Assembly (NCBI GenBank): GCA_015075185.1
Contig: JABTUW010000006.1
Coordinates: 1 to 64,000, forward strand
Reading direction: 5' to 3'
DNA length: 64,000 nt
Source: Anaerolineales bacterium
GTDB taxonomy: Bacteria; Chloroflexota; Anaerolineae; 4572-78; J111
Positions 31,722 through 35,782 of this stretch are shown piece after piece (position 1 is the first letter of the stretch; every line of letters starts with the position of its first letter). Under the pieces are notes generated by a model. It did not search any database. It was given only the letters and a program-made list of their open reading frames with translations, and was not told the origin of the DNA. Both the position numbers and the translations under genes were made by a program.

Positions 31722-34700
31722 CTACTGGCCGTGGGCCAGCCCATCCAGCACCTGAGCAACTTTGCCTTTGGCCTGCCAGTAATCAAATTTGGTAATATCC
31801 AGGTGTTCGACGATGCCGCCCAGACGGCGGACTTCTTTCATCATGTGGCCGGTGCCGCCCGGTCCATCGCCACCCTGACCGTTCCACAGGGCAATAAAGC
31901 GGACGTGCTCGATGCCATAAATGAGGGCCGAGTAGAGCGCCCAGCGGTTGTTGCGCTCAAAGGGGTTGTCTCCCTCTTTCAGCGGTCCAAGCCGGTCAAG
32001 CTGGAATTCAAAAGTAACCCTGGGGTTATTACGGATATTATAGAAGCGTTCCACCCAAGCATCCCCGGCAAAGCTGACCGACCTCTCGATAAATTCCGCT
32101 TCAGAAAAAGGAAGCAAAATCTCTACCCGCATATCGCGTTTGAGGCAGGCTTCGATAAAGAGAATATCGCCGCCGCAGGCCGCGCCGGGGGCAATCGCCA
32201 TATCATTATGATCCGCCCCCAGCTTATCCAGGGCTTTGTCAAGGCGGTCGGCGGCTTCTGGTTCCATCTCTGGCGGGAAGCGCGGCTCCGGCCGGCCTGG
32301 CCGGTCAATCATGTGGCCGGAGAAAAGGAAAACGTCCCGAGTTTCCCGTCCAACATGGGCCGCTTGAATTTCTTGCTCAACCTTGACCACTTCTTCACGC
32401 AGAACGGCAATCCCGGCCTCGACATAGTCAGGGCGAAAGTTTAACGAATGTAACAGCTCCAGTTGAGACAAGGCGGATTTCAAGGCAAAACGATTTTGAC
32501 CGGCCAGCGTCAGGGCCTTCTGATAAGCCCGTGTCACCATTTTTGGGTCTTCGGCGGTACAGACGGCCAAATCCCCCAGCGAGAGAAAAATCCAAAAATT
32601 ACTACTTTGTTTTTGCGCTTGACTCTCCAGGCTAAACTGGACGGCTCCTTTAAGCAAATTTATTTGCTGCCGCAGGGCCAAAATTTCAGGATCATCATCG
32701 TCGGCAAAGTGGTGGGCCAGATTGTCCAGCAGCAGCGACAGGCTCAGCGCGTTGATCCCAGAGTAATAATGATTTTGATTCAGGCGATAGCCGGATAAAT
32801 AGGTATCAATCGCTTTCTTGAGCCAGTAAGCAGTGTTGTAGGCTTTTTTCTGGCGTTCCTGCGCATCCTCAATACTTTCCCACTCATTGGCCCACATTTC
32901 TTTGAAAATACGGCCCAGGTAGGAGATGGCCTCGATGTTGGCCGGCTCCTCCTGCAACAGCCGTTCCAGTTTGACCACGGCCTCGTCGGCGCGGCCCAGC
33001 CGGGCCAGGTGAAAGGCCTCCTCGCGGCGGAACTCAGAGTTGTAGGGATTGAGTTTTAAGCCCTCCTGGTACTGCCGCCGGGCCAGTTCGGGGCGGCTCA
33101 GACTCTTAAGGGCACGCCCGGCCTCGGCAATGGCCTCCTCTTTGATCAGCGGGTTGGTCACCTCTTCGGTCAGCAATAATACGTCGCCGATGCGCTTTTG
33201 GCGTTGGGCAATAGTGACCCGCTCTTCCCATTCTTTATACTCGCGCCAATAGCCCGTAGCCAGGGGAGTGCGCAGCGATCTACGGCTCGGCTCCTCCAAG
33301 CCATCCAGCAGATTAAAGATGGGGCTGTGAATCCGGTCCTGGCTGGAAGCCCAGGTTTCGCGGGTGATTTTGACAATAGCCTGCTTATCTTTTTCCAAAT
33401 ATTCCGGGTCGGGCCGGCCGTTTTTGTCAATACGATAGGGTACGGTGCGGACGTTAAAAATGTCGAACGGCAAGTAGGAGCGGCCCGACTGAATATGGAC
33501 CAAGCCGCGCTTGCGGATGGCGTGCCGCACGCCCAGCTCGTAGAAAACATTGGCATTGTCAATGCTCAAATCGGCAATAACCAGATCAGCCAATAGCAAC
33601 TCCTGAAACATATCGGTCAAAATGTCGCCGCTGACGCTCTCTTCGTCGGCGCGGAACGGCTCAAAGCCGGCCTCTTCGAGGGCAGGCTTGATCAAATCCT
33701 GGTAAATGGTGTTAAAATCTATCCACCGCCCATCCGGCCCTTGCTTGCGGCCGAACGGCATTACGACAAAGGCATGAGGCAAGCCCCTGAGCTTTTTAGG
33801 GGGAGCTGGGGGTTGAGGAGAGGCTGCCGTGGCCACTTGGGGGGCTTCGGCCTGGCTGGCTGGCGTTGTTGGCTTGTCTTGAGCGCCGTTCACTCCTGCT
33901 GCCTCTTTGGCGGCAGCGGCTTGGACCAAATTTTCGACAGCATCTTCCGCTGTTGAAATAACCTCCTCAGGAACGCCCAGCTTGGGTAATATTTTACCCG
34001 CGACAGCCAGGGCTTTTTGAGCTTGCTCCAGCAGGGCTGCGTCAATCATCGGCGAGCTAGGCGCGTTCATGGCCTTGGCGATCAAGTCGCCCTCCTTACC
34101 TTTGAGGTCGGCTACGGCCTGGCGCATTTCGCTGATGTATTGGTTGTGCTGGCTCCACAAGACTCGCTCGGTAGCGGTGACCATCTTGAAAAACTCATCG
34201 CTGGTTCTTTGGGATGGAGTTAAACTGAACCAATGATCGCGAATAATCTTTAACTCAAGAGTGAGCTGGCTGTAGTTGTTAATTGTTGAGTCCAGCCGGC
34301 GCAATTCCAGCCAGGCGGTGAAAGCAGCGGCGATGGAGGTAGTCAGGGCGACCCAGATGCTGAAGCTACCCCCCAATGCCGCCAGGAATGTTCCTAACCC
34401 GCCAAAAATAAAAATGGCGATTTGCAGGCGGGTGCGGTCGGTCTGAAGCTGGACAATTTTATTGGCGTGATAATTGAGCTGGTTATCCAGCCGAAAGTGG
34501 ATGTACTCCTCGGCCAGCAGGTTAGAAAAGCCAGGGTCGCTGTCGGGGTCGCCGGGGGAATAGTAAGGGGGAATGACGCCGGTATAAGGTTTCAAAACTA
34601 GGCCGCCGCCGACGCCCTCAAACACCTGGCGCTGGATAGCGGCCACGCGCTCGGTGAGCCACTGGTCCCGCTCGTCTTGCTGCTGCAAGAGGGTGCGGTA

Positions 34701-35036
34701 AAAGTAAATCTCTTTTTTAATTTCCTCGGCGCCGGTGCGAAACGCCAGCCAGCGCTCGCCCTGCTGCATCTTGTTAGCAAAAGCCAGAATCACCGAACTG
34801 ATGATGGGCACCAGAATCAAGCCAATCTTGAGCGCCTGTCCCAGCATTGTTTCTGGACTTCCATAAAGTTGGGTGAGAATGGCTAATAGAGTTGCTATCA
34901 CCGCCAAAATAAGCACTGCCCGGCGCAAGGTCAGGTGATGTTTGGAAGCGGCCTGGGCGCTGGTATCAAACTCGGCGTAACGGCTCCAGGCATTTTGCAG
35001 CGCGATGGAGTTTTCGTTAACGGGTTGTTGGCTCAT
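31722..35036 (-). CDS. multidomain SLATT/DUF4231-like - NDT-like - TPR - SLOG-like membrane protein
   Basis: The 1104-aa protein has predicted membrane pairs at about residues 38-58 and 68-88 and again at 204-245, in a context resembling DUF4231/SLATT modules. A linker rich in Ala/Pro follows (375-415). Residues 420-540 match nucleoside 2-deoxyribosyltransferase/TIR-like folds (FVVMPFG, ADLVIADLSIDNANVFYELG with Glu500). A TPR/DUF4071-like region spans about 560-900. Residues about 925-1104 look like a Rossmann SLOG/LOG-type nucleotide-binding domain (SGHMID, CGGDILFIEACL, VEILLPF). Such parts occur separately in nucleotide-sensing conflict systems; here they are joined. The ATG at 35036 follows GAGGGG. 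The function is unproven. Confidence 0.75.
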   Translation of the reverse strand: MSQQPVNENSIALQNAWSRYAEFDTSAQAASKHHLTLRRAVLILAVIATLLAILTQLYGSPETMLGQALKIGLILVPIISSVILAFANKMQQGERWLAFRTGAEEIKKEIYFYRTLLQQQDERDQWLTERVAAIQRQVFEGVGGGLVLKPYTGVIPPYYSPGDPDSDPGFSNLLAEEYIHFRLDNQLNYHANKIVQLQTDRTRLQIAIFIFGGLGTFLAALGGSFSIWVALTTSIAAAFTAWLELRRLDSTINNYSQLTLELKIIRDHWFSLTPSQRTSDEFFKMVTATERVLWSQHNQYISEMRQAVADLKGKEGDLIAKAMNAPSSPMIDAALLEQAQKALAVAGKILPKLGVPEEVISTAEDAVENLVQAAAAKEAAGVNGAQDKPTTPASQAEAPQVATAASPQPPAPPKKLRGLPHAFVVMPFGRKQGPDGRWIDFNTIYQDLIKPALEEAGFEPFRADEESVSGDILTDMFQELLLADLVIADLSIDNANVFYELGVRHAIRKRGLVHIQSGRSYLPFDIFNVRTVPYRIDKNGRPDPEYLEKDKQAIVKITRETWASSQDRIHSPIFNLLDGLEEPSRRSLRTPLATGYWREYKEWEERVTIAQRQKRIGDVLLLTEEVTNPLIKEEAIAEAGRALKSLSRPELARRQYQEGLKLNPYNSEFRREEAFHLARLGRADEAVVKLERLLQEEPANIEAISYLGRIFKEMWANEWESIEDAQERQKKAYNTAYWLKKAIDTYLSGYRLNQNHYYSGINALSLSLLLDNLAHHFADDDDPEILALRQQINLLKGAVQFSLESQAQKQSSNFWIFLSLGDLAVCTAEDPKMVTRAYQKALTLAGQNRFALKSALSQLELLHSLNFRPDYVEAGIAVLREEVVKVEQEIQAAHVGRETRDVFLFSGHMIDRPGRPEPRFPPEMEPEAADRLDKALDKLGADHNDMAIAPGAACGGDILFIEACLKRDMRVEILLPFSEAEFIERSVSFAGDAWVERFYNIRNNPRVTFEFQLDRLGPLKEGDNPFERNNRWALYSALIYGIEHVRFIALWNGQGGDGPGGTGHMMKEVRRLGGIVEHLDITKFDYWQAKGKVAQVLDGLAHGQ

Positions 35037-35233: not shown

Positions 35234-35782
35234 ATGTCTTTACCTGAAATGCGGGCCAAAGTAAAGGCCAGTATCTGGCAAGCGGTAGCCCAAAGCGGCG
35301 TGACTCTATCCGGCATCCCTCAGGCCGATATGGATCGCCTAGTTGGGGCTATCACCGATGGTGTTTTAAAGGAAATGGATGATTTCCTGAGCCAGGCCAC
35401 GGGCCAACCGGCAGGGGTGTCGAAAGGGCCAGTGGACGAGGGAGATAATGAAGCGGAAACGATCCTCTGGGAAGGCCGTCCCTTCTTATCACTCAGCGTT
35501 CGTTACCAGATTACCAGTGAACGGGTCCGTATTACCGAGGGGATGGTAGGCAAAGATCGGGAAGACATCGAATTGGTGCGTGTTCAGGATATTGACGTAA
35601 GCCAGGGCATCAGCGAGCGAATGCTGGGGATTGGCGATCTCCACATTCGCAGTCACGATCCGAGCCACCCCACCGCTGTCCTCAATAACATTTCGAATCC
35701 TACGGAAGTCCATGAGATTTTGCGGCGAGCTGTATTAAAGGCCCGCAAAAAGTATAATGTGAGTTTTCGGGAACAAATGTAG
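35234..35782 (+). CDS. small bacterial PH-domain (DUF304/bPH2-like) protein
   Basis: The 182-aa protein has an alpha-helical N-terminus (1-60), a short acidic linker, and from about residue 75 a domain starting LWEGRPFLSLSVRYQITSERVRI that matches the bacterial PH-like (YdbS/DUF304) fold, ending in a charged helix with RRAVLKARKKY. There is no membrane segment, unlike most YdbS proteins. AGGAG precedes the ATG. It is divergent from the large SLATT/SLOG gene with about 200 nt of shared regulatory DNA, so the two may be functionally linked, but this is inference. Confidence 0.78.
   Translation: MSLPEMRAKVKASIWQAVAQSGVTLSGIPQADMDRLVGAITDGVLKEMDDFLSQATGQPAGVSKGPVDEGDNEAETILWEGRPFLSLSVRYQITSERVRITEGMVGKDREDIELVRVQDIDVSQGISERMLGIGDLHIRSHDPSHPTAVLNNISNPTEVHEILRRAVLKARKKYNVSFREQM

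Follow-up and report, generated by a model that had tools for sequence, protein, structure and literature searches.

A SLATT-SLATT-DrHyd-TPR-S-SLOG fusion protein from an Anaerolineales bacterium as a possible one-chain form of predicted NAD+-signal conflict systems

The DNA analyzed here, referred to as the window, is a stretch of 64,000 nucleotides from an Anaerolineales bacterium (contig JABTUW010000006.1, positions 1–64,000). One of its genes combines membrane, enzyme-like, scaffold and sensor modules in a single polypeptide, which raises the question of whether this fusion is genuine and what a protein of such composition might do. The first-pass annotation had reported a single open reading frame holding all modules within 1104 residues, and both its exact coordinates and its location on the minus strand were confirmed (Table 1). 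Its domain reading was right in all four parts (SLATT, TIR/NDT-like, TPR and SLOG), with the SLOG part resting on weaker, sub-threshold profile evidence. Modelled in full length from its own sequence alone, the protein reached a pLDDT of 42.

Table 1. Coordinates of the fusion gene and of its predicted parts in the window.
Feature	Positions	Strand	Details
Whole gene, SLATT-SLATT-DrHyd-TPR-S-SLOG	31722..35036	(-)	1104 aa, ATG start
N-terminal SLATT unit (DUF4231/SLATT_3-like)	34692..34967	(-)	residues 24–115; TM ~40–58 and ~68–86
Second SLATT unit (SLATT_1)	34140..34505	(-)	residues 178–299; TM ~204–222 and ~225–243
Linker, poorly conserved	33795..34076	(-)	residues 321–414; 57% identity to sister orthologue
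DrHyd/TIR-like domain, predicted N-glycosidase fold	33393..33794	(-)	residues 415–548; best conserved portion
Codon of Glu500, putative catalytic residue (NANVFYELG motif)	33537..33539	(-)	aligned to DNPH1 Glu104; invariant
TPR scaffold including TPR-S (652–766)	32367..33131	(-)	residues 636–890
C-terminal SLOG-type domain (YspA/YAcAr type)	31725..32354	(-)	residues 895–1104; motifs SGH...GAACGGD...RNNRW...GGT

The membrane part had been read as one SLATT unit; its SLATT identity holds, and two units were found in tandem. In Pfam, the second unit matches SLATT_1 above the cut-off (E = 5e-26), in agreement with NCBIfam, and the N-terminal unit matches DUF4231 above the cut-off (E = 2e-7), with an overlapping sub-threshold match to SLATT_3 at residues 20–107. 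The four hydrophobic segments are distributed in two pairs, one per unit, and the membrane part is, therefore, a tandem in which both units combine a profile match with two transmembrane helices, as in the SLATT family. A rhizobial DUF4231 protein shares this SLATT_3 plus SLATT_1 arrangement. The SLATT assignment by profiles is strong, and the membrane part is probably a pore. The same tandem is fused in paralogues to LSDAT, a TRPM-type SLOG sensor, in a prokaryotic TRPM-like layout (L076 2800–4680, L077 8916–10727, L081 2187–4142 and L084 9850–11799); these proteins differ from the fusion in that their sensor is N-terminal and that they lack DrHyd and TPR-S.

The DrHyd domain is the slowest-evolving part of the protein, with 85% mean column identity among the orthologues and a dN/dS of 0.04. 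Its sequence-only matches to known families are weak, including that of residues 415–548 to Nuc_deoxyrib_tr; the PADLOC 'TIR' effector model matches residues 420–539 with E = 6e-6. An AlphaFold2 model of the domain, computed from a 14-sequence alignment with phage homologues, has a pLDDT of 77 and a pTM of 0.75. The best PDB matches of this model found by Foldseek include the CMP N-glycosidase MilB (5.8e-4), the TIR domain of SARM1 (7.1e-4), TIR-STING and DNPH1. The structure prediction thus agrees with the NDT/TIR-like character proposed initially, with MilB, SARM1 TIR and DNPH1 as the nearest folds, and places the domain in the TIR/DrHyd N-glycosidase class of Rossmannoid folds. Glu500 aligns, weakly (E ~1), with position 87 of the DNPH1 construct, which is Glu104, the catalytic residue of that enzyme, by an offset fixed from the D80A mutant. 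The glutamate, in the motif FYELG, is invariant in 18 of 18 orthologues and also in the 14-sequence alignment, and is a putative catalytic residue. Single genes for this DrHyd/TIR-like domain, annotated only as hypothetical, occur in phages of Staphylococcus, Streptococcus and Dorea (L108 3010–3657, L109 2959–3735 and L150 1501–2367). Viral contigs scanned with alignments of the family yielded no relative.

Next to this domain, the scaffold initially annotated as TPR is indeed TPR and can be refined to the specific TPR-S family, a strong profile assignment (E = 9e-17; 61.9 bits against a Pfam gathering score of 27.6). The C-terminal part is probably SLOG-like, as first read, with its extent corrected to approximately residues 895–1104. 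The SLOG family YAcAr is matched by 8 of the 18 orthologues, with E = 2e-4 at best and only 0.05 for the window protein, below the Pfam cut-off. When the orthologue profile was aligned with hhalign to 13 YAcAr proteins from Chloroflexota, E was 9e-4 with a probability of only 23%, and the alignment covers the G-x-A-x-G-x-D and RN...WD...GT motifs; 20 column-shuffled control profiles gave E values of 0.16 or worse. No useful match resulted from a PDB search with the SLOG profile. The evidence for a SLOG domain of the YspA/YAcAr type is weaker than for the other modules but consistent.

The order of a DrHyd-like domain followed by TPR-S is shared with animal ASK1 (MAP3K5), in its thioredoxin-binding domain and TPR region, whose output is a kinase. 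A rhizobial DrHyd-TPR-S protein matches human ASK1 structures (8qgy, E = 8e-8; 5ulm, E = 1e-6), and the family profile matches ASK1 at 7.6e-9, with generic TPR designs scoring higher. A second, weak alignment pairs the DrHyd part of the rhizobial relative with ASK1, which has FYHLG where the bacterial proteins have FYELG, so the putative catalytic glutamate appears to have been lost in ASK1. A bacterial origin of parts of the ASK1 signalosome has been stated (PMC8195603), and a bacterial ASK1-like DrHyd-TPR core that keeps the glutamate would make the proposed origin of the ASK1 sensor testable.

Within the family, seven genomes carry the fused gene (G000, G548, G583, G478, G388, G425 and G540). 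The orthologue of G548 is 79% identical, and the copy of G540 is fused but frameshifted. In the gene tree, which includes six fused rows, the fused proteins form one clade with support of 100/100, and dN/dS over the whole gene is about 0.11 against the nearest orthologue. These findings show that the fusion is real and that purifying selection acts along its whole length. The frameshift-broken gene of one relative (L062) might suggest that the fusion is itself a frameshift or assembly artefact; with the fusion shared by seven genomes of one family and selection acting on the full length, this idea is hardly credible and was rejected. The fused orthologue in L062 (9263–12544) is broken in its SLATT part, and is either a decayed gene or the product of an assembly error.

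The modules had been said to occur usually in separate genes, and both split orthologues and plasmid operons bear this out. In two other families of the same class of Chloroflexota (f2 and f8), the protein is split into two adjacent genes, the first encoding SLATT-SLATT (~430–740 aa) and the second DrHyd-TPR-S-SLOG (~750–800 aa). The two genes usually lie ~25 bp or less apart, with ~2.3 kb between them in G608, and the linker at residues 321–414 is the place where the fused form joins them. In eight f2 loci, a gene for a TIR-TM-WD40 protein (~1000 aa) lies directly upstream of the split pair, and in most of them a C39-peptidase-SH3 gene also precedes the pair. One more f2 locus keeps the upstream TIR-WD40 and C39 genes without the adjoining DrHyd gene, and a ninth TIR-linked split locus, from f8, has its TIR-WD40 gene ~0.8 kb from the DrHyd gene. 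Split forms are found in each of the two other families as well as on plasmids, which makes a derived fusion the simplest interpretation; the rooting of the tree is no proof of this order. A conserved convergent gene of ~160 aa follows the split DrHyd-TPR-S-SLOG gene (L034 11347–11814, with counterparts in 11 loci); the member tested had no Pfam match, and a search of six fused-lineage genomes, run without a positive control, gave no match.

More distant relatives show the same association. A plasmid of R. sophoriradicis carries genes for DrHyd-TPR-S, a tandem SLATT (SLATT_3 plus SLATT_1, DUF4231) and TIR together, and on a plasmid of R. leguminosarum SLOG, DrHyd-TPR-S and SLATT are encoded by consecutive genes. 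In the latter (L104 5923–9087), the SLATT is again a tandem and the TPR-S part seems to be broken up between two frames. An Acinetobacter plasmid has the order TIR, DrHyd-TPR-S, TIR, adjoining restriction and toxin-antitoxin genes, and in another Chloroflexota genome (L215) a TIR gene, a DrHyd-TPR-S gene and a SLATT gene follow one another. The linkage does not extend to all TPR-S genes: at several Chloroflexota loci with weaker TPR-S matches, the stretch examined contained neither a SLATT nor a TIR match.

The surroundings of the fused gene are of a different kind. Around it in the window lie trp genes, glycosyltransferases, a bPH_2 gene, a methyltransferase, a GAF-PAS histidine kinase and a TadA-like ATPase, and the fused relatives retain most of this set. 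The bPH_2 (bacterial PH) gene, at 35234–35782, adjoins the fusion in divergent orientation and is kept in L032/L061 and L065. PADLOC found no defence system around the locus, its sole strong match there being a plain methyltransferase that fits part of a model, and no complete known anti-phage system; the protein itself gave only partial matches to TIR and 2TM effector models. The neighbourhood is not rich in defence or mobile genes as a defence island would be. The fused lineage has no linked TIR gene, and a search of the window's genome for a linked TIR-WD40 orthologue returned only repeat-type WD40 matches, with TIR domains elsewhere; the five TIR domains of the host genome are all unlinked. 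As the gene tree follows the host families and the neighbours are kept, inheritance of the gene is vertical, which is not the rule among defence systems. The suggestion of the first-pass annotation that the gene may belong to a defence system is favoured by the relatives, with their repeated TIR and SLATT linkage and their plasmids, and finds no support in the window locus, an ordinary stretch of syntenic chromosome. Proximity of homologues to defence genes was found for the plasmid and split relatives (TIR, SLATT and, in one case, restriction and toxin-antitoxin genes) and not for the fused lineage.

We prefer, at even chances, the reading that the protein belongs to the predicted NAD+-signal conflict systems, as a sensor-effector that is bound to the membrane and contained in one chain. 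Because its relatives carry the parts in genes of their own that lie close together, often with a TIR gene adjacent, the fusion is probably an immune or stress-death system of a kind already predicted in bacteria, complete in itself, and from these relatives we infer that an antiviral role is plausible. The mechanism that we propose follows from published predictions, in which TIR, DrHyd and SLOG are grouped together as producing, cutting or sensing nucleotides derived from NAD+, and SLATT is a membrane effector gated by ADPr signals (PMC9503650, PMC7159879). The DrHyd domain would act on NAD+ or a related nucleotide by cleaving an N-glycosidic bond, and the TPR-S scaffold and SLOG would bind an ADP-ribose-type signal, either the product of this cleavage or one that comes in, thereby setting a threshold. 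Signal binding would cause the paired SLATT 2TM units to assemble into a pore or to open the inner membrane in some other way, and the ensuing arrest or death of the cell would stop phage spread or answer stress. With all parts in one chain, stoichiometry would be guaranteed and a signal diffusing between separate proteins would not be needed. Alternatively, the signal might be left to one of the unlinked TIR proteins of the genome. Since the split relatives have a separate TIR, the DrHyd domain may make, amplify or remove the signal. Counting against this reading are the lack of a defence system at the locus, the vertical inheritance, the absence of a linked TIR gene and the sub-threshold SLOG match. 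A bolder version, which we consider rather unlikely, is a switch for death or immunity made of a single polypeptide, which would generate an NAD+-derived signal, sense it and respond to it by itself. Enzyme, threshold scaffold, sensor and pore would then work in cis, on the basis of a bacterial counterpart to ASK1's sensory half.

The chromosomal and vertical character of the fused lineage keeps alive a role outside antiviral defence. The protein could be an ASK1-like redox or metabolic stress sensor that gates membrane permeability or signalling, encoded by an ordinary chromosomal gene. Its synteny within the family with the GAF-PAS histidine kinase, the TadA-like ATPase and the bPH_2 gene, and the relation of the DrHyd-TPR-S core to human ASK1 seen through the rhizobial relative, are in keeping with such a sensor; the plasmid relatives of the core beside TIR and SLATT genes, in one case with restriction and toxin-antitoxin genes, and the split Chloroflexota orthologues in TIR operons are not, and we regard this role as possible though doubtful. 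Unlikely in our judgement is a variant of the preferred reading with the enzyme step reversed, in which a separate TIR makes the signal and DrHyd destroys it as a threshold or shut-off. The separate TIR protein in the operons of the split orthologues and the TIR domains elsewhere in the host genome would suit that division of labour, against which stand the missing TIR linkage of the fused lineage and the scores of the DrHyd domain with TIR effector models and TIR structures. With MilB and DNPH1 among the nearest folds, DrHyd could also be a membrane-anchored hydrolase that cleans up damaged nucleotides, with TPR and SLOG in regulatory roles and no part in cell death. In such an enzyme, one would not expect TPR-S, TIR linkage or a tandem SLATT whose four transmembrane segments are kept in many genomes, and we deem this reading quite improbable.

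TPR-S systems had reportedly been predicted to read NAD+-derived signals by Burroughs and Aravind in J Bacteriol in 2020. To call the present system undescribed, as had been done, is too strong, because a network of TPR-S, DrHyd, SLOG, SLATT and TIR is already predicted in the literature, with PMC9503650 and PMC7159879 covering TIR, DrHyd, SLOG and SLATT. The fusion has the same domain families and, in its relatives, the same gene linkage on plasmids and elsewhere, and differs in its single chain, two SLATT units, SLOG after TPR-S and unlinked TIR. The DrHyd-TPR-S proteins of rhizobial plasmids, annotated 'TRAFs-binding domain', have the same core and the SLATT_3 plus SLATT_1 tandem in neighbouring genes; by contrast, they are separate genes in a plasmid context, and the R. 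sophoriradicis form is without SLOG. Thoeris (ThsB TIR plus ThsA SLOG effector) resembles the fusion in its logic of TIR-class enzyme, SLOG sensor and effector, whereas here the effector is a membrane one instead of a sirtuin, DrHyd takes the place of a canonical TIR, a TPR scaffold is present and there are not two genes. Pfam and PADLOC gave no sirtuin or ThsA match and no linked TIR gene in the protein and its neighbourhood. As far as the literature consulted shows, novelty lies in the single chain and, among the relatives, in the TIR-WD40/tandem-SLATT/DrHyd-TPR-S-SLOG operon. If the preferred reading is right, the fusion would be the simplest experimental handle on TPR-S/SLATT systems, so far predicted from gene neighbourhoods, offering one gene to clone, a candidate catalytic residue in E500 and two separable halves with natural split versions.

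One further fusion joins RyR, TPR-S, SLOG and adenylate cyclase (L089 2841–5687), and a TIR gene (1620–2816) lies 24 bp away from it. Phage RyR-domain proteins are reported to degrade ADPR-based immune signals (2026 preprint, PMC13232231).
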